Positions 18,707 to 42,463 of a stretch of 64,000 nt of DNA are shown here, one piece after another. Position 1 is the first letter of the stretch; every line of letters starts with the position of its first letter. The notes under the pieces were generated by a model. The model was not told the origin of the DNA. It saw only the letters and a list, made by a program, of their open reading frames with translations, and searched no databases. Origin of the DNA: a bacterium (GTDB taxonomy: Bacteria; AUK180). Both the position numbers and the translations under genes were made by a program. Location of the stretch: the NCBI GenBank assembly GCA_023144005.1, contig JAGLGN010000017.1, positions 1 through 64,000 of the forward strand, given 5' to 3'.

Positions 18707-18714
18707 ATAAGGAT

Positions 18715-18743: not shown

Positions 18744-18766
18744 TGTATTTTTAGTATGTTTTCTAT

Positions 18767-19465: not shown

Positions 19466-19476
19466 CAAAGATAATA

Positions 19477-21966: not shown

Positions 21967-21991
21967 CTTATATTTTAATCTAAATTCTGAG

Positions 21992-22019
21992 AATAATCAA
22001 ATTTTCTTGACGAGTGTCA
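21992..22019 (-). promoter_or_regulatory. Promoter-like sequence for the C11 protease gene
   Basis: A perfect TTGACA (22014-22019, minus strand) lies 16 bases from GATTAT (21992-21997). The -35 overlaps an inverted repeat TCTTGAC-GAGT-GTCAAGA (22004-22021), which could be an operator. The leader to the ATG at 21966 is about 20 bases. Confidence 0.4.
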
Positions 22020-22025
22020 AGATAA

Positions 22026-22069
22026 TGGAGGTTGGAGGCTAGAGGTTGGAGGCTAGAGGTTGGAGGTTA
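22026..22069. repeat. Tandem GGAGGTTGGAGGCTAGAGGTT-type repeat
   Basis: About three head-to-tail units built from ggaggttggaggctaga. The reverse complement of the same text occurs at 38051-38090. Confidence 0.8.
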
Positions 22070-22125
22070 GTGCAGAAAAAAGGAGTCACATCCGTCTCGC
22101 TTTCGCTCCCCATTTCTTTATCCCC

Positions 22126-22210
22126 ACTTGTGCACTTGTCACCTGTGCTCTTGTGCTCTGCGTAGCGTGTCCCTTGTGCACTTGTCACTTGTGCTCTGCG
22201 AAGCGTGTTC
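22126..22210. repeat. Degenerate intergenic repeat, CTTGTGCACTTGTCAC...TGCGNAGCGTGT family
   Basis: Two imperfect units of about 45 bp, each running from cacttgtgcacttgtcac to ctctgcgnagcgtgt. The same family appears near 37.98, 39.00, 41.80, 42.35, 42.43 and 43.73 kb, and reversed near 61.19 and 62.75 kb. Confidence 0.75.
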
Positions 22211-22254
22211 AAAGTAAAAAGTGAAGATCCGATACCCTTTCCGTCACCCTATTT

Positions 22255-25200
22255 TTAACCGTCCAGAACATCACGAATAAGATAGAGAAACATTTCGAGG
22301 TTAAAAGGTTTTTGAATAAAATTGACATTCTCTTCAATAATTCCCTGCTTTGTTATAATGTCTTCGGTAAAACCGGACATGAATAGTACTTTAATATCCG
22401 GCCGCTTTTTTTTGATATATTCAGATATTTGTTTCCCGTTGAGACGATTAGGGAGAACCATGTCAGAAACAAGCAAATGTATATCGTCTTCATATTTCTT
22501 CTCTTGCATTTTTGCTTTCTCTCCATCTGATGCTTCGAGAACCGTATAACCATGTGATACAAGCGCCCTTGCTATTGCGCGTCTCAACATCTTCTCATCT
22601 TCAACTAAGAGGATTGTTTCTTCCCCGTCAAGGGTTTTTCCGCTATTTTTCTCTATGTTTAAATCAACCGGGAAGGCATCGCTTTGCGGAATGAAAATAT
22701 TGAATGTCGTTCCGACTTCAAGTTCGCTGTGGACAAATATCTCTCCTTTATTCTGCTTAACTATTCCATAAACCGTAGGCAATCCCAAACCTGTCCCTAT
22801 TTCCCCTTTTGTGGTAAAGAACGGATCAAATATCTTCTCCAGAATTTCATCACTGATCCCCTTCCCCGTGTCGCTTATCAGGAGATGAACATACTTTCCG
22901 GGGCTAAGATAATAATCTTTGGCGGCATCGTCCACACCGACTTCAATGTTTGAAGTCTCGATCGACAATTTGCCTCCGGCCGGCATTGCTTCCAAAGCAT
23001 TCGAAACAAGGTTCAAGAGGATCTGTTTGACCTGAGTCGGATCCATTTTTACTGCATTAAGCGCCTCTTCAAGATGTATCTCAAGGGAGATCTGCTCGCC
23101 GATGATTCGGGAGAGCATCTCTTTCATCCCAGAAACGATTGAGTTTAAATTGAGAGACCGGGGCTGAATGATCTGTTTGCGGCTGAATGCCATCAGTTGC
23201 GATGTCAACCCCCGCGCATGATCGATACCCATTCTTATTTCATCCAGATATTCATGTATCTTACTACTCTCAGATGGCTCCAGCGCACAAAGATCTCTAA
23301 ATATAAGTATAGAATTCAGGAGATTGTTGAAATCATGAACGATCCCTCCGACAAAGGTTCCGAGGGCATCCATTTTCTGCGATTGCAGGAATTGTTCCTG
23401 AAGCTTTCTTTGGGTTGTAATATCCTGAAATATGCAGAAAATATTGTCTTCCTTCGGTAAATGCTGAAGTACGGATGCTATAGCGTAAATGTTGTCATTC
23501 CCGTCAGTTCCCTCAAATGCAACACTGTCCGGATTTCCTTTACTCAGCGGACAGAATTCACAAGGCTCATCTATTCGGAAAAAATGAGAATAACACTTTT
23601 TCCCGATTGAAGGGAATCTTTCCTGAAGAAATTGGCTTTGAAATGTTATTTTATAGTTCTCATCAATAATGGCGATCCCGATCCCGGCAGAGTTTAAACT
23701 GCTGACAATATTCAGGCGGACCTGATATTCCTGAATGGCTTTCTCCTGTATTTTCTGTATTTCAGTAACATCTTTTCCTGAGCATAGAAGACTGGAATAA
23801 TTTCCCGAATTGTCTTCTATCAGCATATCCTGCCATTGGACGGCCCTGATATTGCCCTTCGCGGTAACAATTTCGTTTTCATATACCTCATTTCTATCTT
23901 TCTTTTTGTCAAAAGAATGCTTGAAAACGGCCTTGATCGAATCCTTGATATCTTTCGGAATAAAATTATCGAACCAGTTCTTCCCCAGCAGATCTTCCCT
24001 TTTTGCTTCCAGAACCTGGCATGCTGTGTCGTTGATCATGACAATTCGAGCATCCGGATCGAGTACCAGTAACATGACCTGAGCCATATTGAAATATTTT
24101 TCACTTCTCTCCTTTTCATTTCTCAAATCGCTTTGCCGCTTGATATCTTCGGAAATATCATCTACCAACGAAGCGGTTCCTGTAACATTTCCCTTTTCAT
24201 CGGTCAAGACAACATTATACCATTCACATGTGATGCGCTCTTTGTTTTTGGTAATATTAACGTTTCTGGACCGGTCGCCTCCAGTTTGAGATAATAATCT
24301 CTTGTTAATATCTTCGATCGTATCGCGGAGCTCTTCAGGAACAATGAGTTCATCTGTAAAGCATCCCAGCGCTTCGCTACGGGAAAATCCAAATATTGAT
24401 TCCGCGGCTTGATTCCATCCTGTAATTCTTTGATCAAGGGCAAATGTGATCGCGGCGAGAGGATTATTATGTAAATGACTTTTAAGCTGCTGCATAACTC
24501 TGTGCAATTCAATTTCTGCCATTTTACGATCTGTGATATCCTGAAGAGTCCCGTAAACGTTAACAATATCTCCCTTCTCATTACAATTTAGCTTTGTTTG
24601 GGCATGTATATACTTGATATCACCGTTTCTCATCACAAGACGGTATTCAAGCTCTCCGGAAGTCCTTTCTCTTCTTGATCTTTCCCGAAGTTCTAAAAGC
24701 GCGTCCTTGTCATCCGGATGGATGAATGTTAAGATCGGGTCATCGGTTTCAAGATCGATATCCTCGGGTTTGACTCCGTAGATATTGTACATTTCATTGG
24801 ACCAGGTAACTGCTGTCGAAGCTGCCGACCAGGTCCAGCTGCCGATGCGGGCGACCTTTTCGGCTTCATTCAATAGTAACCTATTTTTTTCGAGAGATTC
24901 TTCGATCTGCTTCAATACTGTTATATCCTGAATGGTTCCCGTCGATTTGAGCGCTTCTCCGTTTTCATTACATTCGATGCTACCGATCTCGTTGACAAAT
25001 TTGATCGAACCGTCCTTCAGGAGCAAACGGTAAATGATCTCATACATTTCTCCGGTTTCGATAGCTTTCTCCAAGGTCTCCTCAACGAAGCTCCGGTCCT
25101 GTGGGTGGATACTTAAGAGAAAGGTTTCGTGAACATCCTCAATTTCGTCAGGTTTGACCTCAAAGATCGCGTAAACCTCATCCGACCAGAACATTTTCCC

Positions 25201-26448
25201 CGAGGAGTGGTCAAAGGTTAATTGTCCCAGTCTGGCAATTCTTTGAGATTCTCTTAAACTATTTTCACTGTTTCGCAATTTCTCTTCTGCTATAAAGGCT
25301 TCGGTTACATCAATATCAACCCCTCTGTAGCCGAGAAATTTCCCGCCTTTGTCGAAAAATGGACTCCCATTCGTTTTCAGATAAACAATATCGCCGTTCT
25401 TGTGTAAATAACGTGTTGAAAAAGAAATGATATCTTCTCTGCTCTTGAATTTCTCCCGGAAAAATGCGACATATTCTTCTTTTACTTCAGGATGAAAGAA
25501 ATCATAAAAGTGCTTTTTACCGATGATATCCTCCGGAAGATAACCGAGGATTTGAAAAACGGTTTCATTTGAATACACATACAGCCCTTCTGGATCAGTT
25601 TCCCAAATCCATTCCTCGGCTCTCTCGGCAATCTGATGAAACCTCAGGCTGCTTTCCAACAATTGCTGCATCAATGTTTTTTGGAAAGTAACATCTATGA
25701 AGGTTTCAATAACCGATGTAGGGCGGCCGTCATTCCAACTCACCGCGGCAACAGTTATTAAATACCATTTTTGCTCTTTTTCAAAATACCTCTCCGCGGT
25801 GTAACTGTTTGGATTATCGGGATTTCTCTGGATTTCCGAACAACAAGAGGTTTTCAATTCATCAAAGGGCAGATCATCAAGTATTTGATCAGCGAGCGTT
25901 CCTTCCCTGTTTTCAAAGAATATCCGCCAGTGATCGCTTGTTCCAAGCATTTCCTCGGCGGACAACCCGGTCAACAAGACACACGCGCTATTCCAATGTG
26001 TGATACGGTGGTCTTCGTTGAGGATGAATACCGCCACAGGCATTCCTTCCAATATCTCCTTCTGATACCTTGCCAGTTCTTCCAGTTTTTGATTAATAAG
26101 CTTATTATCCCTATTAGCCTTCACAAGTTTGTCGGAGTACCTTCTTGATTTTCGCAATATCACATTCATCACGATTGTCAATACGAGCAGAGCAAGATAT
26201 CTTTCGTAATCCAATAGATGCAATCCTTGCCTGAAAACGAAAACATGACTGATGCTGTTCAGCGCCACTATATACGTTAATACATAGAAGGATTTTTGTC
26301 CATACCACAAGGCGCAGAGAACAAGAACAAAATAGTAGAAATTACTGATGAGTTCGTGGCTGTGACCCCGATAGTGAAGTATTATTGTAAGAACGGTGAT
26401 ACATACAAGTGATATCAGTATAATATTAAATCTGCTTTTGCTATTCAT
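22255..26448 (-). CDS. Multi-PAS hybrid histidine kinase
   Basis: A 1397-residue membrane sensor kinase. The first about 115 residues hold several hydrophobic segments. Seven PAS/PAC domains follow from about residue 130 to 1020, many ending in the typical DIT motif. The kinase core has the H-box [10 protein letters not shown], an N-box in [36 protein letters not shown] and the [11 protein letters not shown] motif. A C-terminal receiver ([20 protein letters not shown], phospho-Asp in LLVSDMVLP, Lys in FIQKPF) makes it hybrid. The seventh PAS has a cysteine cluster, [20 protein letters not shown]. It follows the sigma-54 regulator gene by 47 bases in the same direction, so the two are a likely pair. 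What it senses is unknown. Confidence 0.92.
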
Positions 26449-26495
26449 GTTTCATTCCTTTGATCTTCAATCGGCATTACCGGATGTGCCCCGGT

Positions 26496-27890
26496 CTATT
26501 TCTTGTACCGGTTCGGATTTATTTCCAAAGCGTTGAGTTTATTGTAAAAGGTTTTACGATTGATCTGAGATCTTTTCGCGGCTTGAGATACATTCCCCTC
26601 ACATTTAATCAGCATATCGATAAGGAAGCTCCTTTCAAATTTATTTATTGTGTCCTGACGCCTCAGATGAAAGTTTTCGGATTCCTCCTTTGAGGGAAAG
26701 CGGTCATCTTTCACGATCTCAATAGGTAATTCGTCCACAGTGATCTCACCTGATACATTGAGAAGCACGAGAGTTTCTAAAGCGCCCTTTAATTGCCTTA
26801 CATTTCCGGGCCATGAGTATTTCATCAATCTATCCTCAGCTTTTTTTGAAAAGAATACCTTTTTTTCAAATTTGTTATTGTAAAAGGAGAGAAAGTATGC
26901 CAGTAATTCAGAAATATCTTCCCGACGGTCTTTGATGGGCGGAATTAAAATTTGAATAATCTTTAATCTATAATACAGATCCTCTTTAAACTTCTCATTT
27001 TTGATCAATGTTTCAATACATTTATTTGAAGATGATATTATCCTGACATCACTATGAATGATCTTACTTCCGCCGACACGGAGAAATTCGCCGCGGTCCA
27101 GAAATCTCAAAAGACTATTTTGAAAAGTCATTGATGCGCTATTTATCTCATCAAGATATATCGTTCCGCCTTTTGCGATCTCAAATATTCCGTACTTCCT
27201 TTTGTCTGCACCCGTGAAAGCCCCCTTTTCATAGCCGAAGAGTTCCGCGTTCAAGAGGTTTTCAGAAAACGCGGCGCAATTCAAGGGAATGAACGGCTTG
27301 TCTGATCGAATGCTTCTTTGATGAAGAAGTCTCGCAACAACTTCTTTGCCTGTCCCGGTTTCACCCTCGATCAATACAGGAGTATTGAAACCCCGCACCT
27401 TGTTTATAATGCTTTTTATATCACGGATCTCTTTAGAATTTCCAAGTAACTCCAGCACAGGTTCTCTTTTGCGCAAATATTGTATCTGACGTGTCAATTG
27501 CTGCTTATTCTGCAAGCGCTTTACACGAAAGACAAGATCATCAGAGTTGAACGGCTTGGGGATATAATCATAAAACCCCATACTTAGGGCCTTAATGCCC
27601 TTTTCGATATCTCCGTGGCCGGTAATTAAAATGAACTCCGAATTTCCGCATGTCTTCGAGCTCATTATTTCATTGTACAGATCGAAACCGTTCGAATCGG
27701 GCAGGGAGTAGTCCAGGATAACAATATTGTAATCATTGTCATCGATCATTTTACGGGCTGCCTGCGCGCAGTGGGCCAGATGGCATTCTAAGCCCAGAAG
27801 CTTCTGCAGCAGCAGAGCAAGAGCATCGCATAATTTCCTGTCATCATCAACGATCAGAACCTCGATAGAGTTATTCCGCTTTGTTATCAT
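26496..27890 (-). CDS. Sigma-54-dependent response regulator (NtrC family)
   Basis: A 464-residue activator with a receiver domain (VLIVDDDRKLCDALALLLQK, phospho-Asp in IVILDYSLP, Lys in YIPKPF), a central AAA+ domain with Walker A EGETGTGKEVV, the sigma-54-contacting GAFTGA loop in EKGAFTGADKR, Walker B GGTIYLDEI, and a C-terminal Fis-type helix-turn-helix (EGNVSQAAKRSQINRKTFYN). It needs sigma-54 RNA polymerase. Transcribed first in an operon with the hybrid kinase, and divergent from the chemosensory operon with 166 bases between the start codons, so it may regulate that operon, its own, or both. Confidence 0.93.
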   Translation of the reverse strand: MITKRNNSIEVLIVDDDRKLCDALALLLQKLLGLECHLAHCAQAARKMIDDNDYNIVILDYSLPDSNGFDLYNEIMSSKTCGNSEFILITGHGDIEKGIKALSMGFYDYIPKPFNSDDLVFRVKRLQNKQQLTRQIQYLRKREPVLELLGNSKEIRDIKSIINKVRGFNTPVLIEGETGTGKEVVARLLHQRSIRSDKPFIPLNCAAFSENLLNAELFGYEKGAFTGADKRKYGIFEIAKGGTIYLDEINSASMTFQNSLLRFLDRGEFLRVGGSKIIHSDVRIISSSNKCIETLIKNEKFKEDLYYRLKIIQILIPPIKDRREDISELLAYFLSFYNNKFEKKVFFSKKAEDRLMKYSWPGNVRQLKGALETLVLLNVSGEITVDELPIEIVKDDRFPSKEESENFHLRRQDTINKFERSFLIDMLIKCEGNVSQAAKRSQINRKTFYNKLNALEINPNRYKK

Positions 27891-28056
27891 AAAGTGATTT
27901 TACAATTTTTGGGCTACATTTTCAACTGTGCAATTTACCCGTCATTTGTATAATCCCTTACACACACCAGTATGGGCAGTGGCGGCGATTTCGCCCTTGA
28001 TATGTAGATTTACAACTTGGCATAGATATTGGAAAGAGCTATTCACAGGAGGCCAT

Positions 28057-28566
28057 ATGAGCGATATTGACAATTTCCTTGGAAGTGCGGCTAACGATAG
28101 TGTTCAAATAGTCAGCTTCAATGTAGATGAAGAGGAATACGGGATTCCCATTGAAGATATTCAAAGGGTGATCAGGTTGCCGGAGATAACACGTCTTCCA
28201 CAGACACCGGATTTTATTAAAGGCGTCATTAATCTGGAGGGTGAGGTGGTTCCCATCATAGATATGCATGAGAGATTCGGGCTCGAAAAACGGGAATACG
28301 GGACTTCCACCAGAGTCATCATAGTCAAATTAATGGAGAAAGACGTAGGAATGATAGTGGACAGTGTATCTCAGGTGCGCGTTGTAATGAACAAAGAGAT
28401 CGAAAAGGTCACCGAAGTAATCAGCGGTATCTCAAAAGAGTATATCGCGGGGATCGCCAAGATAAGTGACTCGATGGTCATTCTTCTGAAGATAGAGAAA
28501 ATCCTTACTTCAAAAGAATTTACCGTGGTATCAAAGGCCGGCAAAGGCAAAAAAACTAAGAAATAG
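28057..28566 (+). CDS. cheW: CheW adaptor
   Basis: Links the chemoreceptor to the CheA kinase. The CheW fold is recognised from [40 protein letters not shown] and [17 protein letters not shown]. The start is the ATG at 28057 with AGGAGG four bases before; an open frame extends upstream but has no CheW sequence. The encoded protein is 169 residues with a lysine-rich tail. It is the first gene of a nine-gene chemosensory operon and is nine bases from the receptor gene. Confidence 0.93.
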
Positions 28567-28574
28567 GAGTTTAT

Positions 28575-30827
28575 ATGAAAAAAAGAAGAAAAAAAGGAAG
28601 AATCACAGAGAGAAGCTTTTTCAGCAATCTCGCGGATATGGCTTTCATGGTTGACAAGGATCTGATCGTTCAAAAAGTGAACGCGTCGCTTTTACAGGAT
28701 ATGGGCTACTCCCGTGAAGAGGTTGTTGGCCAGATGACATGCGGTCAACTCTGCAAAACACCTTTGTGCGGAACTGAGAACTGCACAATAAAGAGAGCCT
28801 GGAGGGAAAAGACAACGGTTGTCGGTTCCACCGTAGCTGAAACAAAATATGGCAAGAAGATTCCGATCAGGGCAAGCTGCGGAATTCTCACTGACGATAA
28901 AGGCAATATTACCGGCGGTTTTGAAATCATCTCAAAAATACCGGAACTTGATGAAGGATTCCTTTCAAATATGGCTGACGCTGCGTTCAGGGTTGATAAG
29001 AACCTCATGGTTCAGCATATTAATGATACTGCCTTGAAACTGCTCGGTTATCAAAAGGCTGAGGTTATCGGGCAAATGACATGTGCGGAACTTTGTAAGA
29101 CCCCTTTATGCGGAACGACGAACTGTACAGTGAAAAATGCAATGTCTGACAGGAGCACCGTTATCGGAACAACCGTGGCCAAAAGTAAAAGCGGGCAGCT
29201 TCTCCCTGTCCGTGCCAGTTGCGGATTTACGGCAGATACCGACGGAAACATCACCGGCGGTTTTGAAGTTCTTTCTCTTGTCAAAGAGATTGACGAGGGC
29301 TTTCTTTCCAATATGGCCGATGCGGCTTTCAGAACCGATAAAAATCTGATCATTCAGAATATTAACGATGCAGCCCTCTCCCAACTCGGATATTCAAGGG
29401 AAGAGGTCGTTGGAAAGCTTTCCTGTGCGGTCTTGTGCAAAACCCCGTATTGCGGAACAGATCAATGCACCATAAAGCGATGCATGAACTCAAAAACAAC
29501 GATCGTCGCTGAAACAGAAGCTCAAAATAAGTCTGGAGCAAAAATACCGATCCGGGCAAGTTGCGGAGTCCTGACAGATGTCTACGGAAATCCTACAGGC
29601 GGATTCGAAATACTTACCGATAACAGTAACCTCGTAGAAATGATCGAGAATGTCAGTAAGCTCGCGATGGACGGAAATCTTTCCGTTAAGGTGAGTGATG
29701 AGATCACGGCCAGAAACGATACGATCGGAAAACTTGGCAAATCCATGAATGAAATGGTGAAGAGCTTGAATGATACCGCAAAAGCCGCCGGCCGGATTGC
29801 AGCCAAAGACCTTACGGTAGCTATCACTCCGAGATCCAAAGATGATAAATTGAATTTAGCGTTCAAGAAAATGGTTGAAGACCTTAGAAATATGATCAAA
29901 GAGGTTATGGAAGCGTCAGATCAGGTGGCCGCTTCAGCCGAAGAGCTTTCAAATACTTCCCAAAATCTTTCCGACGGTTCACAGAAACAGGCAGCCGCCC
30001 TCGAACAGGCATCTTCTTCCATGGAAGAAATGACTACTTCGGTAGAGCAGGTGTCTGATAAGGCGCAGAATCAAGCTTCATCAGTGGAAGAAGTGTCATC
30101 TTCGATAAATGACCTGAACAAATTAATAAAAGATGTCGCGGAAGGAGCTGATAAAGTTAAAACGAATTCCGGAGGCTCGGTTACTCAAGCGGTTGAGGCG
30201 GCAGAAGCTTCGGTAAAGGCAAATGAGGGAATGAAAAAGATCGAAGAAAGTTCCAATAATATAAAGAATATCATCAATGTGATCAACGATATCGCGGATC
30301 AGACCAACCTTCTGGCTTTGAACGCTTCCATTGAAGCAGCCCGTGCCGGAGACGCAGGCCGGGGATTTGCGGTTGTCGCAAAAGAGATCTCAAAACTGGC
30401 CGAGAAAAGTTCGGAAGCAACAAAAGAGATTGCAATGCTGATCAATGAGACCGGCGCGAATGTCGTTGTAGGTTCGGAAATGGTGCTGAAAGTTGATGAA
30501 TCCATTTCTAAAATGAAGGAACTGGCTGAATCGGTCTCCGGTTCTGGACAGACCATGTCGGATTCAGCCAAGGAGCAATTGGAAGGTTTCTCTCAAATCG
30601 CAATTGCAGTCGAGAATATTAACGATATGGCTCAGGGAATCGCGTCATCCGCCGAGGAACAAAGCAGTACATCTGAAGAAATGTCCAAAACGATCGAAGG
30701 TGTAAACGATATCACTCAGCAAGCCGCTTCCAGCTCGGAAGAGATGGCATCTTCTACAGAAGAACTGTCAACTCAGGCGGAGAGCTTGAAGAAATTGGTA
30801 GCTCAATTCAAACTCGATGATAAATAA
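28575..30827 (+). CDS. Soluble chemoreceptor with three cysteine-rich PAS domains
   Basis: A methyl-accepting chemotaxis protein of 750 residues with no membrane segment, so it should sense inside the cell. The N-terminal third is three tandem PAS domains of about 113 residues (about 12-125, 126-240, 241-350). Each has the same cysteine pattern, C-x3-C-x4-C-x4-C in TCxxLCKTPxCGTxxCT, plus a fifth cysteine in RASCG. A HAMP-like linker (about 355-440) precedes the signalling coiled coil, whose tip has [18 protein letters not shown]. Glu/Gln-rich helices around [19 protein letters not shown] are likely methylation or deamidation sites for CheR, CheB and CheD. There is no CheR-binding pentapeptide at the C-terminus. 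The cysteines suggest metal, heme or redox sensing, which is inference. Confidence 0.92.
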
Positions 30828-30837
30828 ACACTCCGCA

Positions 30838-30860
30838 GGAGGGGGTTTTGCGCCCCCTCC
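30838..30860. promoter_or_regulatory. Strong hairpin between receptor and cheR
   Basis: A perfect 8-bp G/C-rich stem, ggaggggg (30838-30845) and ccccctcc (30853-30860), around a 7-base loop. No T-run follows, so it is more likely an mRNA-processing or partial-attenuation element than a full terminator; it could lower expression of cheR-cheA relative to the abundant receptor and CheW. Confidence 0.55.
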
Positions 30861-30878
30861 AACCATTCAGGTAAGAAG

Positions 30879-31709
30879 ATGATAGAACCCGAAGACACAA
30901 TGACTGATTCCAATTTTCGTCTGTTCAGCAAACTGATTTATCGTGAAACAGGGATCTTCATGGATGTGAAAAAAAAGGCACTATTAATTAATCGTCTTAA
31001 AAAGCGCTTGAAATATATGAATATCCCTTCCTTCTATAAATATTACAGATATGTGAAGAAATCAGGGGATAAGGACGAACTGGCGAGATTCATTGATGAA
31101 GTAACGACAAATGTTACAAGCTTCTTCCGAGATCCCAAGCAATTTGAACGGGTCAAGAAATTGATATTCACCAAAATTATCCCGACGCGGCGGAAGAAAA
31201 CTCTCGATATTCTCAGTGCCGGTTGTTCGACAGGACAAGAGCCCTATTCTATTGCGCTTCTGGCAAGAGAAGAGCTTCTTCCCAGGCTTCCGGATTGGCG
31301 AATATCCGTTTCAGGTGTTGATATTTGTGAAAGCGCGATTGTAACCGCAAATAATGGAGAGTATGAAAAGGATGACATCGAATCACTTCCTAAGAAATAC
31401 TTGCTCAAGTATTTTACACAGAATCAGGATAAATACACTATTTCCAATGACATCAAGGAGATGGTCGAGTTGAATCGGCGAAACCTTATCACGCAAACAA
31501 TAGTGGGCAAATATGATATTATCTATTGCCGGAATGTGGTAATTTATTTCGACAAACACAGTAAAAATATCGTATATAATAAATTTCATCATGCCCTTAA
31601 GAAGGACGGCTATCTTATCGTCGGGCATTCCGAAGGATTGATGGGCGATCCGCGTTTTAAATTTCACACTCCGGGAATCTACAGGAAGGTACTTAATGAA
31701 GGAGATTAA
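30879..31709 (+). CDS. cheR: CheR chemoreceptor methyltransferase
   Basis: Methylates receptor glutamates using S-adenosylmethionine. The N-terminal helical part (FSKLIYRETGIFMDVKKKAL) precedes the conserved TTNVTSFFRDPKQF segment, the SAM site SAGCSTGQEPYSIA, and the later YCRNVVIYFD motif. With 276 residues it is standard length. Start is the ATG at 30879; an ATG seven codons later is also possible. It overlaps cheA by 14 bases. Confidence 0.93.
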   Translation: MIEPEDTMTDSNFRLFSKLIYRETGIFMDVKKKALLINRLKKRLKYMNIPSFYKYYRYVKKSGDKDELARFIDEVTTNVTSFFRDPKQFERVKKLIFTKIIPTRRKKTLDILSAGCSTGQEPYSIALLAREELLPRLPDWRISVSGVDICESAIVTANNGEYEKDDIESLPKKYLLKYFTQNQDKYTISNDIKEMVELNRRNLITQTIVGKYDIIYCRNVVIYFDKHSKNIVYNKFHHALKKDGYLIVGHSEGLMGDPRFKFHTPGIYRKVLNEGD

Positions 31710-34482
31710 TTTCAAAGAATTCCAAACATATTTCCGTGAGGAATTAAAGGAATTTGTGGTAACTCTGAACAAAAATCTGGTAAAATATGAGAAAGAGCCC
31801 GAAAACCAGAGACTCATTCAAAAGATCTTCCGTATATTCCACACGATCAAAAGTTCTGCGGCTTCCGTAGGGTTTTTCAACCTGAGCACTCTCGCGCACA
31901 AAGCCGAAGACATTCTGCACCTTCTCAGGGCGGGGGAAATAGTGATCTCGGGAGAGATCATTTCACTTCTCTTGTCAGTGGTCGATCGATTTCAGGATCT
32001 CGCCGGTGAAACGGCGATTTCTTCAGAAGACATTGAACAACTGATCAAGGATCTCGAAAATTACTCCAAGGAAACAACAACTCCTGCAAATACCGCTGTG
32101 ACAACTGACAAGGCGCCTGCTATCTCTGAATTCATCACACATCTATCAGAATATGAAAGATCGATCGTCGATGATCATGCCAAGGGTCACAAATATCATT
32201 ATTGCCTGACAGTAACCGTATTCAATGATGAGGAACTTAAGGGTTTAAGAGCAGAACTTGTGTTCACAACGCTTGAGAAAGAATGTATATTGGTAAAGAC
32301 ATTTCCTGAAAGAGATGGGATTTCAACTTCTTCCGGTACTCATAATTTTTACGCACTGCTGCTTTCCAATCTTTCAGATTCGGAATTAGAGTCAATAATT
32401 TCTATTGATGGAATAGAGAAGGTCGAATTCGAAGAATTGAATTTCAACAAAGGCGCATTTCAATTAAAAGATGAGGGTGGCGAAAAGCATTCGGAAGGAA
32501 CTCAGAATTACGGAAATAACCTCGTTACAAACTCTTCTGAAGCTGAAAATTCGAATATCATCCAGACTTCGAACACCATAAGAGTTTCAATTGATAAACT
32601 TGACAAATTATTCAATCTTGTCGGAGAACTCATCATTGCATCGACCGGTTTCAATGAATTGGAAATGAATTTGAGAGCCAAATCAGAGTATAAACAGATC
32701 AGAGAGGATTTTTCATTTGTTTCAAATAAAGTTATGGATATTTCATCTAAGCTTCAATATAACATTATGCGAACCAGAATGCTTCCGATCTCAATTTTAT
32801 TTAATCAATTCCCCCGAGTAGTAAGAGACCTCAGTCAAGAACATGGGAAAGATATTGAACTTGAACTTATCGGGACTGAAACCGAACTGGACAAGAAGGT
32901 CATTGATGAGATTGGCGATGCACTCTTACATATTCTGAGAAATGCGATCGATCATGGAATTGAATCTCCAGAACAGCGATTAAAAAACGGAAAAGAGCGC
33001 ACGGGAAATATAACGATTGAAGCGATCCAGGTCGGTAATCATATAGTAATCTCTATCCGTGATGATGGTAGCGGCATTGATCTCGAAGAGGTCCGCAAGA
33101 AGGCCGTCGGTATGGGTTACTTCCCAAAGACATCTCCTGAAAAGATTACCGAAAAGGAACTTCTGAAAATTATATTTGAACCGGGATTCAGCACTTCTTC
33201 AAAGATAACAACAATATCGGGCAGAGGCGTTGGGTTGGACGCCGTGAGAAGCGTAGTAGCTACTCTTGGCGGGTCGGTCACCATTCACAATCAACCCTCA
33301 GCCGGCTGCGAGTTCAAGATCGTCCTTCCGCTTACGGTTGCAACAACAACTGTGATTTTTGTCAGGGCAGGAGATTATACCTGCGGCATTCCGGTTGGGT
33401 ATGTTGATCAGATCGTAAAATTCGATGTTAAGAAACTTAGGACTTTCCAGGGGAATTGGCTGGCGGAACTGAATGGCAAACCTGTTCCTTTGACATTTCT
33501 GGAAAGTATTCTGGATACTCATTCCCACAAGCAAATTTCAGAGAAGGAGATCAAAGTAGTGGTCGCGAAATTCAACAATGAACGCTTAGGTTTCATCGTT
33601 GATGATGTGATCGGTGATCAAGAGATCGTTGTTAAGCCGCTGGAAAAGAATTTCCGGGCGATCAAAGGACTGTCTGGGGCAGCTATTCTTGGCAACGGCA
33701 AAATTATCTTTATCTTGGATATCCTTGAAATATTCAATTTACACAAAAACACATTGAATCTGGCCGCAAATGAATATAAGAAGCAATTAGAAACGGAAAT
33801 GACATTGGAGGACGAAGCGATGGATGAAAATAGTAGCATTACAGAAGAAAATGCTCATTCGGATGAGAAAAAAGCATTAACGACATTCACAACAGACGAC
33901 ATTTCGGATATCAATAGATGTCTGAATAAATTCTATAGCGAAGCAAGTGATTCCCTTTCTGGTCTATTAAACCGGAAAGTTACCATCGGAAGCAACAGCG
34001 ATCCGATTTTCATAAACGGCCTGGAATTGATCAATCAGATGCTTGTGAATTTCGAGGACCTTTACTTCGCTTCAATACTTAAAATGTCAAAAAGCATTAA
34101 TATTAATACCATTCTGCTTCTAAATGAGGAGTCCGGCAGAAAGCTCTTCGAGATATTCATGACCAGCTATCAAGAATCGCCCGACCCGGAAAATGCCGAC
34201 ATTATTGAAGGCCTGGGTGAAATCAATAATATACTCGGGAGTATTTTCATCAACAATCTGGCAAATTATCTTAAAGTTGAAATTCATCCTTCCCCACCAA
34301 TCAATGTCTTTGATATGCTTGGGGCCATTGTTCAAGGAGTAGTATCACAGGACGAATTTTTGGACAAAACGATTCTTTATTCTGATACCGAATTCCATAT
34401 TGATTCAGAAAATTCACTTCATGCGCAATTAATGACAGTTCTCGATTCAAAGGAACTAGCCACTCTGAAGGGGACGCTATGA
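31696..34482 (+). CDS. cheA: CheA histidine kinase fused to a CheC-like phosphatase domain
   Basis: Receives signals from the receptor and phosphorylates CheY and CheB. The 928 residues contain an HPt domain with phospho-His49 (FHTIKSSAASVG), a small P2-like domain (about 150-255), the dimerisation region (RVSIDKLDKLFNLVGELIIA), an ATPase domain with ILRNAIDHGIE, DDGSGID and SGRGVGLDAV, and a CheW-like domain (about 540-680). Beyond the normal end there is an acidic linker and then about 195 residues with a CheC/FliY-type motif: E842 and N845 in EGLGEINNILGS with a proline 23 residues later, matching E-x2-N-x22-P. The earlier equivalent position (DINRCL) is degenerate, so one active site remains. 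The stop overlaps the next gene by four bases. Confidence 0.93.
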   Translation: MKEINFKEFQTYFREELKEFVVTLNKNLVKYEKEPENQRLIQKIFRIFHTIKSSAASVGFFNLSTLAHKAEDILHLLRAGEIVISGEIISLLLSVVDRFQDLAGETAISSEDIEQLIKDLENYSKETTTPANTAVTTDKAPAISEFITHLSEYERSIVDDHAKGHKYHYCLTVTVFNDEELKGLRAELVFTTLEKECILVKTFPERDGISTSSGTHNFYALLLSNLSDSELESIISIDGIEKVEFEELNFNKGAFQLKDEGGEKHSEGTQNYGNNLVTNSSEAENSNIIQTSNTIRVSIDKLDKLFNLVGELIIASTGFNELEMNLRAKSEYKQIREDFSFVSNKVMDISSKLQYNIMRTRMLPISILFNQFPRVVRDLSQEHGKDIELELIGTETELDKKVIDEIGDALLHILRNAIDHGIESPEQRLKNGKERTGNITIEAIQVGNHIVISIRDDGSGIDLEEVRKKAVGMGYFPKTSPEKITEKELLKIIFEPGFSTSSKITTISGRGVGLDAVRSVVATLGGSVTIHNQPSAGCEFKIVLPLTVATTTVIFVRAGDYTCGIPVGYVDQIVKFDVKKLRTFQGNWLAELNGKPVPLTFLESILDTHSHKQISEKEIKVVVAKFNNERLGFIVDDVIGDQEIVVKPLEKNFRAIKGLSGAAILGNGKIIFILDILEIFNLHKNTLNLAANEYKKQLETEMTLEDEAMDENSSITEENAHSDEKKALTTFTTDDISDINRCLNKFYSEASDSLSGLLNRKVTIGSNSDPIFINGLELINQMLVNFEDLYFASILKMSKSININTILLLNEESGRKLFEIFMTSYQESPDPENADIIEGLGEINNILGSIFINNLANYLKVEIHPSPPINVFDMLGAIVQGVVSQDEFLDKTILYSDTEFHIDSENSLHAQLMTVLDSKELATLKGTL

Positions 34483-34964
34483 GCGCTGCAAGGGCAAAGA
34501 ATTACATCAATGTTTCGGAGATAAGAATATCACAGGATGATTTAACTCTGGAAACCGTTTTAGGGTCTTCGATTGCAGTATGCTTGTGGGATGGAAAGAG
34601 TTTGACCGGTGGGATAATTCATATATTACTGCCAAAAGGCCCCGAAGGGAAAGTTAAAGAACAAGGGAAATATGCGGATACGGGTTTACCTTGCCTGGTA
34701 AGTAAAATGATCGAATCCGGATGTGATCATAAGGTTTTGGTCGCCAAGATACTTGGAGGGTCTTCTGCATTCAGTGATGACTGGGATAATTCCCTGGGTG
34801 CCAGAAATTATCACACCACGAAAAAGACTTTGGAGCAAATGAAAATTCCGATAGTTTTTGAAGATATTGGAGGAAAGACCGGAAGACACATTTTCTTCTC
34901 CACGATAAATGGCGAGGTTGAGGTGGTTTGCTTGTCAAAACGGAGGACAAATTGCAACGCGTAG
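34479..34964 (+). CDS. cheD: CheD-like protein lacking the catalytic cysteine
   Basis: CheD proteins deamidate receptor glutamines and bind CheC. This 161-residue protein has the fold, with LETVLGSSIAVCLWDG, the conserved His in GGIIHILLP and Thr in YADTGLP, then KILGGSSAF and FEDIGGKTGRHIFF. The catalytic cysteine, which should follow LGS, is replaced by Ser (LGSS); the Cys four residues later is not in the usual position. It is therefore probably inactive as a deamidase but may still bind a CheC domain. It starts inside the end of the CheA-CheC gene (ATGA overlap), which fits a binding partner role. The second CheD at 37.4 kb has the intact triad. Confidence 0.85.
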   Translation: MSAARAKNYINVSEIRISQDDLTLETVLGSSIAVCLWDGKSLTGGIIHILLPKGPEGKVKEQGKYADTGLPCLVSKMIESGCDHKVLVAKILGGSSAFSDDWDNSLGARNYHTTKKTLEQMKIPIVFEDIGGKTGRHIFFSTINGEVEVVCLSKRRTNCNA

Positions 34965-36043
34965 AAGGTAAGATCAATGTTTTGATAGTTGACGACTCTC
35001 CCATGATGAGAAAAATGTTGAAGGAAATACTTTTGACCGACAAGAAAATCCATGTAATGGGAAGTGCTCCGAATGGAAAAATCGCTCTGGCAAAACTTGC
35101 ACTGCATACGCCGGATGTTATTACGTTAGACCTTGAAATGCCCCATGTTGACGGATTGACCACATTAAAGGAGATCATGTCCAACAATCCTATCCCTGTT
35201 CTGATTGTGAGTTCTCACACTACACACGGAGCGAAAAAAACTCTTCTGGCATTATCATACGGAGCCGTGGATTTTGTGACCAAACCCGATGCCAAGTTAA
35301 GCAGGACCGTAATGGATGTTGCAGATGAAATAGTGATGAAGATCAAAGCAGTAAATAAAGCTAAGATCAAGCGCCTGGATATAAAGAAAGTTACGGATTT
35401 TCACTCAATTGAACAGCAAGCGGTAAGTCCTCAGAAGCGAAAAGCAATTCTTGATAAAAATATTTCGGTGATCGCGATCGGGATCTCAACAGGTGGTCCG
35501 GAAGCTCTTGCAGCGATATTACCGACGATTCCCCCGGATATTAAGGCAGGAATTCTCATTGTTCAGCATATGCCGATCGGTTTTACCAAGGTATTTGCGG
35601 AAAGGATGAACAAGATATCTGAAATTGAAGTTCTTGAAGCTGCCAATGGCACCATTATAGCTCCAGGAAGAGTAATAATTGCAAAAGGCGGATTTCATAT
35701 GGTAGTCAAGGAGCAGAAATTCGCTCATATAATAAGATTGAATCAGAATGCACGGGTTTCCCTGTTCCGTCCATCAATTGATGTAATGATGGAATCAGTT
35801 GCAGAAAATTTCGGAAACAATTCAATCGGTGTGATTATGACCGGAATGGGATATGACGGATGTGAAGGAATTGCTAAAATACAATCTGCGGGAGGTTTTT
35901 CTATCGCTCAAGATAAGTCATCTTCAGTAGTATTCGGAATGAACAAGACTGCGATCGCGAAAGGATATATTGAGAAAGTTGTTCCTCTAAAGAGGGTTGT
36001 ACCGCTTATTTTAGAACGATTAGAAGTTATGGAGGTAGCATGA
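34952..36043 (+). CDS. cheB: CheB methylesterase/deamidase
   Basis: Removes receptor methyl groups when phosphorylated. A receiver domain (VLIVDDSPMMRKMLKEILL, phospho-Asp in VITLDLEMP, Lys in FVTKPD) is joined to the esterase with Ser in GISTGGPEAL, His in IVQHMPIGFT and Asp in MTGMGYDG. I place the start at a TTG at 34952, five bases after GGAGG, giving 363 residues; a TTG at 34928 lacks a ribosome site and would add eight residues. It overlaps cheD by 13 bases and cheY by four. Confidence 0.93.
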   Translation: MQRVEGKINVLIVDDSPMMRKMLKEILLTDKKIHVMGSAPNGKIALAKLALHTPDVITLDLEMPHVDGLTTLKEIMSNNPIPVLIVSSHTTHGAKKTLLALSYGAVDFVTKPDAKLSRTVMDVADEIVMKIKAVNKAKIKRLDIKKVTDFHSIEQQAVSPQKRKAILDKNISVIAIGISTGGPEALAAILPTIPPDIKAGILIVQHMPIGFTKVFAERMNKISEIEVLEAANGTIIAPGRVIIAKGGFHMVVKEQKFAHIIRLNQNARVSLFRPSIDVMMESVAENFGNNSIGVIMTGMGYDGCEGIAKIQSAGGFSIAQDKSSSVVFGMNKTAIAKGYIEKVVPLKRVVPLILERLEVMEVA

Positions 36044-36405
36044 AAACTCTTTTAATAGTTGATGATGCAAAATTGATGAGAATGATGATAAGAAAGTCCA
36101 TAAGTGAGGAAAGCTTCAATATTATCGAAGCAGCTAACGGGAAAGAAGCTCTGGCACTCTATAAGGAACACTCCCCTGATGTGGTTACTATGGATATTAC
36201 GATGAAGATCATGAATGGTTTCGAAGCTACGAAACATATACTGGCATATAACAATGAGGCCAAGATCATAATAATTACTGCACTTGGGCAGGAAGTTCTT
36301 CTACAGAAATGTATTAAAGAGGGAATTTCGGATTTCTTGCTCAAGCCATTCTCCAAAGAACGGCTGGTGAAAGTAATTGAAAAACATATGAATGAAAAAA
36401 ACTGA
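36040..36405 (+). CDS. cheY: CheY response regulator
   Basis: Single receiver domain of 121 residues with the acidic pair in LLIVDDAKLM, phospho-Asp in VVTMDITMKIMNG, Thr in IIITALG and Lys in FLLKPF. It would be phosphorylated by CheA and dephosphorylated by the CheC-like domain. No flagellar gene is in the window, so the output could be flagella or another system. It overlaps cheB by four bases and the HD-GYP gene by 14. Confidence 0.92.
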   Translation: MKTLLIVDDAKLMRMMIRKSISEESFNIIEAANGKEALALYKEHSPDVVTMDITMKIMNGFEATKHILAYNNEAKIIIITALGQEVLLQKCIKEGISDFLLKPFSKERLVKVIEKHMNEKN

Positions 36406-37384
36406 ATATAGAACCCTTGTACTCGTCCCTGATGTTGAGCAGGATAAGGTTTTAAGCAATCTGTACGGAGTGGATTTTAATATCACTCTGAGGACGGACT
36501 TTGAGCAGGACATGAATACTAAATACGACATTCTCCTTACAAACACACCAGAATCCCACGAAGGAAAGCATGATTTTTTGGAAGAGCAGGCTATGATCAT
36601 TTATTACTCGATTGAGGATCTTCCTTTCATCACTTCCACTCATTTTTTACATGACAAGTCGTACACAAAGGTTTTCAGGGTCGAGCTGCTGGAAAGATTT
36701 ATCACTAATTTTTTTAACAATGTCCTCATCCCTCAAATTGACAACATCCCATTTGAAACCTATCATGCCAGGGGGCGAGTACTCTCTTTTCTATACAACA
36801 TAGTAAATTCCTTCTCGAATATGATCGAAGCGAAAAGCTATTACACATGGGTTCATAGCAAGCGGGTTGGTCGTATCTCGTATAAAATCGGAGTGGAGCT
36901 CGGATTGCCGGAGGAGAAGCTTGAAGAACTTATTATAGGGGCATTGATACATGACCTCGGAAAGGTTGCGATTTCTGAAAAAATATTGATTAAGCCGGAT
37001 AATCTGGATATGCAGGAATTTAACCAGATTAAGGAACACCCTCTGATCGGTTATTACATGGTCAACAGCTTCAAATGTTTGACGGAGTTGACCCCGTATA
37101 TACTATATCATCACGAGAGATATGATGGATGCGGTTATCCTTTTGGGTTGAAAGGCACTCGTATACCTTTTGAAAGCCGTATTACTTCTATAGCAGATGC
37201 GATAGAATCCATGGTCAGTTCTCGACCATATCGTAGTGGAATGTCTCTTCAGAAAATTAAGAATGAATTGGAGAACAATTCCGGGACACAATTCGATCCG
37301 GACATTGTCAAGAGTACCCTTTCGTTGATAAAGGAAAATGTTTTTGATGATGTGTTTTTACAAAACCTAAATTATCACTTTTGA
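36392..37384 (+). CDS. HD-GYP domain protein, predicted cyclic di-GMP phosphodiesterase
   Basis: A 330-residue protein. Residues about 1-110 look like a receiver fold that has lost its acidic pocket (TLVLVPDVEQDKVLSNLYGV, no DD pair or phospho-Asp). The C-terminal HD-GYP domain is complete: GALIHDLGKVAI, KEHPLIGYYM, HHERYDGCGYP and IADAIESMVSSRPYR. It should cleave cyclic di-GMP. Being inside the chemosensory operon between cheY and the second cheD, it suggests that this pathway and cyclic di-GMP are linked. It starts with an ATG overlapping cheY and is followed 12 bases later by cheD. Confidence 0.88.
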   Translation: MKKTEYRTLVLVPDVEQDKVLSNLYGVDFNITLRTDFEQDMNTKYDILLTNTPESHEGKHDFLEEQAMIIYYSIEDLPFITSTHFLHDKSYTKVFRVELLERFITNFFNNVLIPQIDNIPFETYHARGRVLSFLYNIVNSFSNMIEAKSYYTWVHSKRVGRISYKIGVELGLPEEKLEELIIGALIHDLGKVAISEKILIKPDNLDMQEFNQIKEHPLIGYYMVNSFKCLTELTPYILYHHERYDGCGYPFGLKGTRIPFESRITSIADAIESMVSSRPYRSGMSLQKIKNELENNSGTQFDPDIVKSTLSLIKENVFDDVFLQNLNYHF

Positions 37385-37396
37385 TGTGATAGAAGC

Positions 37397-37867
37397 ATGG
37401 TAGTCGATACAAATCTATTTGTCAAGGCAGGAGAACTTAAAACGGCACAAGCGCCGTCAGTGCTAAAATCTGTCTTAGGTTCATGTGTGGGTCTCACAAT
37501 TTGGGATCCGGTTAAAAAAATCGCGGGATTAGCACATATTTTCATGCCCAAAAGTGATGGAAAAATAGTTTCTGATAATCTACGAGCCAAATTTGCTGAT
37601 ACAGCCGTTCACGAATTGGTCAATGAGATTTTGGCAGCGGGAAGTCGGAAATATAATCTTGAAGCGAAGTTGATAGGCGGGTGCAATATGCTTGGAAAAG
37701 ATGGTGCTTTGTCAGTAGGGAAACGAAACGCGATGATGGTTAAAGAGAAATTACGGGAACTCCATATCCATCTTATATACGAAGATGTAGGAGGCAAGTA
37801 CGGGAGATATATCGCCCTTGATTGTGAGTCCGGTGAACTTACAGTGAAAACGCTCGGACAAGAATAG
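37397..37867 (+). CDS. cheD: CheD receptor glutamine deamidase
   Basis: A 156-residue CheD with the full catalytic set: Cys in VLGSCVGLTIWD, His in GLAHIFMP and Thr in FADTAV. It should deamidate glutamines on the receptor and may be regulated by binding CheC-type proteins, here the C-terminal domain of CheA. It closes the operon. The first CheD at 34.5 kb is a diverged paralogue without the cysteine, and the two are not close in sequence. Confidence 0.92.
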   Translation: MVVDTNLFVKAGELKTAQAPSVLKSVLGSCVGLTIWDPVKKIAGLAHIFMPKSDGKIVSDNLRAKFADTAVHELVNEILAAGSRKYNLEAKLIGGCNMLGKDGALSVGKRNAMMVKEKLRELHIHLIYEDVGGKYGRYIALDCESGELTVKTLGQE

Positions 37868-37941
37868 GTCTCTGCTAATTCTCTTGGCTCTTTACTCTAT
37901 TGTGATCAAATATCCATTCTATACTCTCTTCCCGCTTTCTC

Positions 37942-38090
37942 AACTTGCGGACTTGCTAACGCTTCGGCACTGCGAAGCTTAACTTGTGCTCGTGTGCACT
38001 TGTCGCTTGTGCTCCGCGCAGCGTGTCCATTGTCAATTGTATTTATCCCCCTCTGCCCTAACCTCTAACCTCCAGCCTCTAACCTCTACG
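37942..38090. repeat. Degenerate intergenic repeats
   Basis: The first part (37942-38040) is the ACTTGTGCTC...GCGCAGCGTGTCC family seen at 22.1 kb. The second (38051-38090) is a tandem of CCTCTAACCTC units, the reverse complement of 22026-22069. The last unit contains the stop codon of the small basic protein gene that follows. Confidence 0.7.
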
Positions 38091-38280
38091 AATCGTTTTC
38101 CTCGATTCGTTTCTCTTTCTTCCTGTCGTATTTCGACATGTCTTTGAATTTTTTGGTGGGCGGGACCGGCCCGATCGTCTCTCTCGCTCCCTTCTTCAGC
38201 TTCTTTGAAAGCTTCTTTTTCTCATCAACCTTCTTCTTTCTTCTCTTTTTAGATCTCTTCTTCTTATTTTTCTTATTCAT
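38086..38280 (-). CDS. Small lysine-rich protein
   Basis: A 64-residue, strongly basic protein beginning MNKKNKKKRSKKRRKKK, with a more ordered tail (TIGPVPPTKKFKDMSKYDRK). The ATG at 38280 follows AAGGGAT. I do not recognise a family. The composition suggests nucleic-acid or ribosome binding. Its stop codon is the first base triplet of a tandem intergenic repeat. It could be translationally coupled to the kinase-like gene 40 bases upstream. Confidence 0.5.
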   Translation of the reverse strand: MNKKNKKKRSKKRRKKKVDEKKKLSKKLKKGARETIGPVPPTKKFKDMSKYDRKKEKRIEENDS

Positions 38281-38320
38281 AATTATCCCTTTCTCTCTTT
38301 CCTTCTTCACCGTTCATTGT

Positions 38321-38851
38321 TCATTGTTCACTGTTCAGTTGCGCAGCATTTTCCAGAAATTCGGCTTTTTCCTCGTGTGAATGCAGCATGAAAACATTGT
38401 TTATATTGCTATGGTTCAAGAGTTTTTCCAGAACCAAGGGACGAGTCTTTCTTCTGAAATTTAATACCCATTTCAGAAACGGCAGGTCAAATCGCTCACG
38501 GCACCCCTCAGCCATGTCGGGGCGGTTGTTCTGCCCTGTGATCCAGCGCTTCAATACATTGTACATGCATCGCGCGGTTGAGAAATCCAGATAGATTACC
38601 GTATCCGCCAGATCCAGTCTGATGTCAATGGTGGAATTGAAATTCCCATCGATTATCCACTTCTCGCCTTTAATGAGATCACGGACCTTCTTCTCCCACT
38701 CCTCAGTCGGGGTCTCTACCCAGCCGGGATTCCAGTAATGCTTGTCCAGATGTATTACCGGAAGATCCATGATATCTCCAAGCGCTCTTGAAAGTGTTGA
38801 CTTTCCGGCTCCACTTGAGCCGAGGATCATTACTTTTTTTATGTTCTTCAT
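38321..38851 (-). CDS. P-loop kinase-like protein (FlaR/topology-modulation type)
   Basis: An adenylate-kinase-like NTPase of 176 residues with Walker A GSSGAGKST near residue 12, LDKHYWNPGW, the WIIDGNFNST strand and a lid region rich in Arg. This matches proteins annotated as AAA ATPases or 'DNA topology modulation protein FlaR'; the real substrate is unknown. The last residues, LNSEQ, and the stop codon are encoded by the first units of a TTCACTG/TTCATTG repeat, so the C-terminus has probably been changed by that repeat. Confidence 0.8.
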   Translation of the reverse strand: MKNIKKVMILGSSGAGKSTLSRALGDIMDLPVIHLDKHYWNPGWVETPTEEWEKKVRDLIKGEKWIIDGNFNSTIDIRLDLADTVIYLDFSTARCMYNVLKRWITGQNNRPDMAEGCRERFDLPFLKWVLNFRRKTRPLVLEKLLNHSNINNVFMLHSHEEKAEFLENAAQLNSEQ

Positions 38852-38945
38852 AGTGAAATATTATACCGTTTCGGACAGATTTTATTTCATCCCAACTATC
38901 TGCGCATGCCTTCAAGCGACAGTATTATTGTTCTCATCCAATTTC

Positions 38946-38968
38946 TAAGGTGACAAATTGGCACCTTA
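38946..38968. repeat. Inverted repeat downstream of the small membrane protein gene
   Basis: TAAGGTG (38946-38952) and CACCTTA (38962-38968) form a 7-bp stem with a 9-base loop. A similar GTAGGT/ACCTAC stem with the same spacing is at 52978-52998. Role unknown. Confidence 0.4.
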
Positions 38969-39000
38969 ATCTCTCTTCCATTCTTCATCCTTCATTTCCC

Positions 39001-39074
39001 CACTTGTCACTTGTGCTCTTGTCACTTGTGCTCTGCGAAGCGTCACTGTTCATTGTTCACTGTTCACTGTTCAC
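39001..39074. repeat. Degenerate intergenic repeats
   Basis: CACTTGTCACTTGTGCTC units, a TGCGAAGCG core and a run of TTCACTG/TTCATTG heptamers. The run overlaps the last codons and stop of the small membrane protein gene. Confidence 0.7.
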
Positions 39075-39299
39075 TTCCTTTTGCACCTTGCCTTTACTCT
39101 CTTTCAGCTTCTTGATCTGTATGCCAATAGGTGCCCAGATGAAAAGCACATGCGCAACAGAGCCGCCGATGAGAATATTCGAAATTTTCCCATACATACC
39201 CGTCCCTTTCAGAACAAATGCACATCCGGTAATGACGGCAGCCCAAATAGTGGCACTGGCAATTATACTTGACCCGAGCAAGTTCTCATATTTTTTCAA
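39057..39299 (-). CDS. Small two-helix membrane protein
   Basis: About 80 residues with two hydrophobic segments (SSIIASATIWAAVITGCAFVL and ISNILIGGSVAHVLFIWAPI) and charged ends. The start is a TTG at 39299 after a strong AAGGAGGA site; an upstream TTG would place the ribosome site inside the gene. The C-terminus EVNSEQ and the stop codon are made of intergenic heptamer repeat. No family recognised. Confidence 0.55.
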   Translation of the reverse strand: MKKYENLLGSSIIASATIWAAVITGCAFVLKGTGMYGKISNILIGGSVAHVLFIWAPIGIQIKKLKESKGKVQKEVNSEQ

Positions 39300-41815: not shown

Positions 41816-41964
41816 CCATTCTTCATTGTATTCTGTCATTCCCGGCTTAACCTGGAATCTAGTTTTATTTCATCCCGTCTTTTTCTCTACTTGACACTTC
41901 ACACTTCAGACTTCACACTTGCTGAGCAAGCTCAGCATTGCTTGTCCATTGGTTGAAGCAACCG

Positions 41965-42213
41965 TCCCGTAGTTACTTGTAAGCATACCCTATCTTCGTA
42001 TCTTCGTATATACGAAGATACGAAGATGCCATTTTTCATTTACTCTTCTGTCCTGGGGTGTTGATCTACTTCACTAAGCACTGCTTGCATATGCTCTTGT
42101 ATTGGCAGTTATGACATTTGCCGTAATTGCGATGATTGCGCTTTATTGATCTTGGAGCGGAAGTTCGAGAGATTATTTCAAGATTTTGCAACAAATGCAA
42201 CAACCGTCCCCGA
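41965..42213. repeat. 249-bp near-identical repeat, copy A
   Basis: Matches 43766-44013 at all but about five positions, one of them a one-base indel. Starts tcccgtagttacttgtaagc, ends accgtccccga. It contains a perfect 36-bp palindrome at 41992-42027 whose arm is atcttcgtatcttcgtat. On the minus strand it encodes a cysteine-rich stretch (YGKCHNCQYKSICKQCL, C-x2-C-x5-C-x2-C) reminiscent of the end of a radical-SAM SPASM domain. Copies A and B flank the TPR gene in the same orientation. Confidence 0.85.
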
Positions 42214-42366
42214 TTCTGATTGCCAATCGCTGGGAATGGGAAAGAAGAGAAAGAGAAGATGAGAGGAAGAGAATTCATCCGGATTTCGGACCTGAAAGGT
42301 TGGGTCACTGGGCTACTTTCTGCTGTTCCACTGGGTCCACTTGTGCCTGGGTCCACTGCGAAGCGT

Positions 42367-42438
42367 GTTCATTGTCAATTATATTTTGTGCCTTGTACCT
42401 TGTGCCTTGTACCTTGTGCCTGGGTCCACTGCGAAGCG
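42367..42438. repeat. 72-bp perfect direct repeat, copy 2
   Basis: Identical to 41744-41815, 623 bp away in the same orientation; lies in the gap downstream of the TPR gene. Confidence 0.85.
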
Positions 42439-42463
42439 TGTTCATTGTTCACTTCTTAATTGT

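Follow-up and report, generated by a model that had tools for sequence, protein, structure and literature searches.

The DNA analysed here, referred to as the window, comprises positions 1 to 64,000 of contig JAGLGN010000017.1 (our contig C9) from a bacterium of the lineage AUK180, whose draft genome is 2.67 Mb in size and 96% complete and whose phylum is represented by only seven genomes in the set that we searched. The genes from 27928 to 37867 lie on a single strand with tight spacing and form one chemotaxis operon, in the order CheW, a triple-PAS chemoreceptor, CheR, CheA, CheD, CheB, CheY, an HD_5 protein and a second CheD (Table 1). Two of the products are the subject of this report: the CheA carries a C-terminal CheC domain, and the CheD encoded immediately after it (CheD1) has a serine in place of the catalytic cysteine. 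A first-pass annotation of the DNA had placed CheD1 directly after a CheA-CheC fusion, and both parts of that statement hold, as the CheD1 start codon overlaps the CheA stop codon by four bases (ATGA) and the CheA C-terminus is, judging from its predicted fold, a true CheC domain. The second CheD (CheD2) lies 2.4 kb downstream of CheD1, and two further Cys-bearing CheDs are encoded elsewhere in the genome (L001, on contig C19, and L004).

CheD1 matches the Pfam CheD family (PF03975) with 84 bits against a cut-off of 25, and aligns with Thermotoga maritima CheD (2F9Z_C) in HMMER with an E-value of 1.3e-19. Its AlphaFold model has a predicted local distance difference test score (pLDDT) of 93.3, and the structure nearest to that model is again 2F9Z_C, with a root-mean-square deviation of 1.5 over 151 columns and a template modelling (TM) score of 0.86-0.90. 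The alignment puts Ser31 of the motif LGSS at the column of T. maritima Cys27 and His48 at that of His44, which bears out both the loss of the catalytic cysteine and the retention of the catalytic histidine that had been noted earlier. The TCG codon of Ser31 is two substitutions away from TGC or TGT, so a single miscalled base cannot explain the serine; sequencing error of that kind was ruled out, and the observation is real rather than an artefact. The threonine, said to be kept in CheD1 and to form part of an intact Cys-His-Thr set in CheD2, fared less well. With the one-residue gap introduced by HMMER, the column of T. maritima Thr21 is occupied by Thr26 of CheD1 and Ser25 of CheD2; in the ungapped alignment it holds Glu and Lys, respectively. 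The claim thus stands for CheD1 only when the gap is allowed, and for CheD2 only as regards Cys30 and His47. Since this column is highly variable among Cys-bearing CheDs, Thr says little about activity. CheD1 retains the Gly, Ser and His at the positions where our CheD alignment (A2) is invariant.

Cys is present in all 29 CheDs counted from an unselected family search (33 matches minus the two CheDs of the window, one locus, L013, that is identical to L001, and one fragment without a locus). In a larger set of 102 rows, made up of 97 sequences (left from 116 matches after short, identical and nested ones were dropped) and five references, the His is invariant, with Cys in 70 rows and Ser in 32, 31 of the latter having been retrieved with a pattern in which Ser was required. 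Replacement of Cys by Ser is also the change that has been used to inactivate enzymes of the CheD fold: in excerpts of a study of BLF1 (PMC8960835), the C94S mutant is described as inactive yet able to bind its substrate, and the entry titles among our structure matches name NTAN1 C75S and, as an inactive form, CNF1 C866S. One such inactive form was crystallised in complex with its substrate. These precedents argue that CheD1 is non-catalytic, and we infer from its sequence that it lacks deamidase activity.

The CheA has Hpt, P2, dimerisation, ATPase and CheW domains, represented by five Pfam matches that all exceed their cut-offs. The domain that follows them, taken alone, scores 24.5 bits against PF04509 (cut-off 22), and 19.5 bits, short of the cut-off, when scored as part of the whole protein; a match to CheC_Thtogales over CheA residues 749-923 reaches 66 bits, below the equivalog cut-off of 250. 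Its predicted structure (residues 729-928, pLDDT 86.5) matches T. maritima CheC with a Z-score of 24.5 (1xkr) and chain B of the T. maritima CheC-CheD complex with one of 24.0 (2F9Z). A CheX identity was rejected, as the best CheX-type Z-scores were 14.3 (3h4y) and 13.9 (3hm4). By its modelled fold, then, the CheA C-terminus is a complete CheC domain. Of the two phosphatase sites of CheC (E-x2-N...P), the second is complete in the fused domain (E842, N845 and P868), and in the first the Glu is replaced by Arg. A CheC domain in a frame of CheA length was found in the genome of the window only (1 of 7, 1 of 386, 0 of 74 and 0 of 103 genomes in domain searches of overlapping sets), the other CheC-domain matches listed for these sets lying in frames of at most 413 aa; no CheC-domain relatives were found in viral contigs.

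In Bacillus subtilis, single residues separate deamidation from CheC binding. Excerpts of the mutant study (PMC3513319) report little deamidase activity for CheD M101A and M101E, retained deamidase activity with about 10% CheC binding for CheD F102E, and poor CheD binding for CheC D149K. According to the same excerpts, the binding of CheD to the receptor raises CheA activity, and CheD binding outweighs deamidation, a paradox that was approached with the mutants (PMC3513319). We anchored our alignment numbering on B. velezensis, in which the numbers of CheD C33, M101 and F102 and of CheC D149 are identical. CheD1 has Ala97-Phe98 at the columns of Met101-Phe102, with Ala at column 101 in CheD1 only among the 102 rows, and CheD2 has Met-Leu. 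By alignment, CheD1 has therefore lost two residues linked to deamidation and kept the Phe that grips CheC, while CheD2 shows the opposite pattern. On the other side of the putative interface, the CheD-binding helix of the fused CheC domain (VFDMLGAIVQG) keeps the D149 equivalent as D873. Phe102 tracks the presence of a nearby cheC: it occurs in 13 of the 15 CheDs from the unselected search with a cheC within about 1.5 kb and in 1 of the 14 without, as well as in 15/16 CheDs of loci fetched with a CheC query, and the D149 equivalent occurs in all 26 CheCs with a cheD in the locus and in 8 of the 12 without. The docking helix also contains a Gln (A-I-V-Q-G-V-V-S) that adjoins a position at which the CheC proteins of T. 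maritima and Bacillus have Glu. Given this Gln, a Cys-bearing CheD might modify the CheC helix of the kinase, and CheD1 could hold the helix without modifying it.

Ser-bearing CheDs also exist elsewhere. We scanned one genome per species (84,980 species) with the DNA pattern LGS-Ser...GG..H..LP, which has fixed spacing and reads Ser as TCN only, so that AGY codons are missed, and recovered 31 other stretches (L038-L068); the same pattern with a Cys codon gave 25 matches, some of them overlapping copies, in the loci collected by that stage. A single clade of 28 rows (97% support in the Shimodaira-Hasegawa-like approximate likelihood ratio test) takes in 28 of the 31, with record titles naming Desulfobacteraceae and other Deltaproteobacteria, and the remaining three come from Nitrospinota, Phycisphaerales and Hydrogenedentota records. 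Like CheD1, the Desulfobacteraceae-centred proteins have LGSS instead of LGSC and keep the His; unlike CheD1, they form their own clade with a motif of the GGMNHFLFP type. Phe102 is found in 1 and a cheC in none of the 31 Ser-CheD loci, and these proteins were thus rejected as CheD1 orthologs and are a different thing. More than one CheD match was obtained in 14 of the 15 Ser-CheD genomes searched, the non-Ser copies that were read having Cys, and a full-length CheC match in two of the 15. The CheD cysteine has been lost several times; the combination of a missing Cys, the Phe and an adjoining fused CheC was seen once. Neither CheD1 nor CheD2 falls in a well-supported clade of the 102-row tree.

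Some of these other CheDs deserve mention in their own right. The clade of 28 (STVLGSS...GGMNHFLFP; for example, L063:6479-6955 and L042:3214-3690) is well conserved and often stands apart from other che genes. In a Nitrospinota genome, a CheA is followed immediately by a Ser-CheD that is joined to a receiver domain (L047:4754-5686, minus strand; L080), and the second CheD of that genome is a 331-aa frame with Cys. In the same genome group as the Ser-CheDs, three loci (L089, L091 and L093) have LGTC CheDs that seem to be joined to a further domain, the open frames being 446-457 aa long.

Table 1. Features of the chemotaxis operon and its surroundings (window coordinates; ORF, open reading frame)
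Feature	Position	Strand	Basis
CheD1, Cys-less CheD, 161 aa	34479..34964	+	Pfam, HMMER, alignment, predicted fold
Ser31 codon TCG, catalytic Cys column	34569..34571	+	read from sequence
Ala97-Phe98 codons	34767..34772	+	alignment; coordinates computed from residue numbers
CheA with C-terminal CheC domain, 928 aa	31696..34482	+	Pfam, profile matches
Fused CheC domain, CheA residues 729-928	33880..34479	+	profiles, predicted fold, alignment
CheD2, 156 aa	37397..37867	+	Pfam, HMMER, alignment
CheW, first gene of the operon	27928..28566	+	ORF list, Pfam
Chemoreceptor, three PAS domains	28575..30827	+	ORF list, Pfam
CheR methyltransferase	30879..31709	+	ORF list, Pfam
CheB; listed TTG start overlaps CheD1 end	34928..36043	+	ORF list, Pfam
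CheY, single receiver domain	36040..36405	+	ORF list, Pfam
HD_5 (HD-GYP type) protein	36392..37384	+	ORF list, Pfam
Accessory block: PAS hybrid kinase, NtrC-like regulator, che operon	22027..38085	.	comparison with same-genus genome G001

Four sites in the chemoreceptor of the operon fit what we take to be the CheD consensus, one of them with a Gln (AALEQASS, residue 474), so a Cys-bearing CheD may have a substrate there. Cysteines are clustered in a similar way in each of the three PAS domains of this receptor and may form a metal or redox site.

Another genome of the same genus (G001) lacks the block that contains the operon. The flanks align to that genome at 97% for 8000-18756, at 93% for 19483-22026 and, from position 38086 onwards, at up to 95%. 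For 22027-38085 it has no long match; instead of the 16-kb block it carries some 4.9 kb, in which a single large gene looks cyclase/TPR-like from its sequence. The operon is thus part of an accessory block that was gained or lost recently. Contamination of the contig was rejected, as a neighbouring gene is 95% identical to its same-genus copy and the sequence on either side of the block aligns to G001; copies of this gene in three genomes of the same family are 47-52% identical. A dispersed repeat of about 0.7 kb (window ~18800-19480) recurs in many G001 contigs, often at contig ends, and gave no Rfam match and no tandem repeat. By the right border of the block, short repeats at ~37970-39090 and 41850-42480 match many places in G001.

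On balance, we consider it somewhat probable that CheD1 is a naturally non-catalytic CheD for binding, which docks on the CheA-borne CheC domain and probably on the receptor too, with deamidation left to the Cys-bearing CheDs. A split of this kind had been suggested in the first-pass annotation, with CheD1 as a dedicated binding subunit of the fused CheC and CheD2 as the enzyme. The idea is strengthened by the opposite residue patterns at columns 101 and 102 and by the retention of D873, and it needs amending in two respects. CheD2 need not be the only enzyme, since the genome has two more Cys-bearing CheDs, and since B. subtilis CheD binds the receptor and CheC through similar sites, according to excerpts of PMC3513319, the term 'binding subunit' may have to include receptor binding.

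In the mechanism that we propose, free CheD1 on the receptor would raise CheA activity. CheA would make phosphorylated CheY (CheY-P), which would bind the fused CheC and give it a higher affinity for CheD1; CheD1 would then be pulled off the receptor by the fused CheC and kinase output would fall. Deamidation of receptor Gln residues would be the task of Cys-bearing CheDs, either CheD2 or the L001 CheD on contig C19. The binding of CheD1 in this organism, its inactivity and the direction of the feedback are what we infer; the shuttle steps themselves are known for the separate proteins of B. subtilis (PMC3513319, in excerpts). What we propose to be new here is a feedback that may be tethered to CheA and stripped of deamidation. 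More tentatively, the kinase's own CheC and a dedicated dead CheD could form a self-contained module, in which CheY-P sensed on the same polypeptide would lead to the capture of CheD1 and so retune the kinase, with the receptor left unmodified and deamidation having moved to CheD2.

Several points weigh against a CheD1 kept for docking on CheC. B. subtilis F102E also weakens receptor binding, to only about a third of wild type in the excerpted data (PMC3513319), so Phe102 is no pure marker of CheC binding. The Fisher p of 2e-5 for the co-occurrence of Phe102 with cheC is too small, because the rows are related by descent, and the CheD of L011 has Phe102 with no CheC in its locus. Met101 is missing in 40 of the 70 Cys-bearing rows; it is therefore the loss of Cys, not of Met, that weighs most, and loss of Met alone is no proof of inactivity. 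Nor is the Leu of CheD2 a sign of inability to bind CheC, being common to many Cys-bearing CheDs. No end branch of the 102-row tree is longer than that of CheD1 (1.63), so the retention of Phe could be residual; such a branch fits fast change after the loss of catalysis, and drift alike. Finally, the case comes from one genome only: no ortholog of the fusion was found in the searches of 7, 386, 74 and 103 genomes or of viral contigs, and none of CheD1 in genome contigs.

If CheD1 is dead, its partner might be the receptor alone: it would occupy CheD sites, activate CheA and shield those sites from CheD2, with no special partnership with the fused CheC. The activation of CheA by receptor-bound CheD in B. 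subtilis (PMC3513319, in excerpts) speaks for this, as do the conserved Ser-CheDs without Phe102 (30/31) or a locus cheC (31/31), which show that Cys-less CheDs without a CheC partner exist. We nevertheless think it unlikely, as CheD1 keeps Phe102 and its gene overlaps a CheA-CheC fusion whose CheD-binding helix is kept. A shade more doubtful is that CheD1, as a redundant copy, is on its way to becoming a pseudogene by drift, its loss of Cys being meaningless. The length of its branch, the three Cys-bearing CheDs that remain in the genome and the absence of the block from a genome of the same genus speak for this; its open reading frame, on the other hand, is intact and overlaps its neighbours, the invariant Gly, Ser and His are kept, the CheD fold is confidently predicted, and the losses fall at deamidase residues with the CheC-binding Phe staying. 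That CheD1 has remained an enzyme, using Ser31 as the nucleophile or having a methylesterase-like activity, is very improbable: His48 is kept, attack on an amide or ester by a serine is conceivable in principle, and methylesterase activity has also been ascribed to T. maritima CheD (PMC3579733, in excerpts), but Cys-to-Ser changes inactivate enzymes of this fold (PMC8960835 and the structure entry titles) and M101A cost B. subtilis CheD most of its deamidase activity (PMC3513319), both as far as the excerpts go.

The system that we favour, with CheD1 docking on the fused CheC, resembles the CheC/CheD/CheY-P adaptation system of B. subtilis (PMC3513319, in excerpts) in having a Phe-bearing CheD, an Asp-bearing CheC, CheY, CheA and a receptor. 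It differs in the fusion of CheC to CheA, in a CheD1 without Cys and Met101, and in the presence of a CheD2 with the opposite residues in the same operon. The predicted folds of CheD1 and of the fused CheC both match the T. maritima CheC-CheD complex (2F9Z), whose CheD, in contrast, has Cys27 and Met-Phe and whose CheC is a separate protein. In full-text searches of a PMC library for work on CheD, CheC and CheA, no title or beginning of an abstract mentioned a CheD without the Cys or a fusion of CheA with CheC.

The separate, Desulfobacteraceae-centred clade of Ser-CheDs means that loss of the CheD cysteine happened more than once. If our reading of CheD1 is true, the window encodes a natural separation-of-function pair for CheD. 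A natural CheD without Cys and Met101 and with the Phe, beside a CheD in which this pattern is reversed, makes the paradox of binding over enzyme activity in B. subtilis, as put in excerpts of PMC3513319, directly testable, and the operon would offer a small, clear system for asking why CheC would fuse to the kinase.

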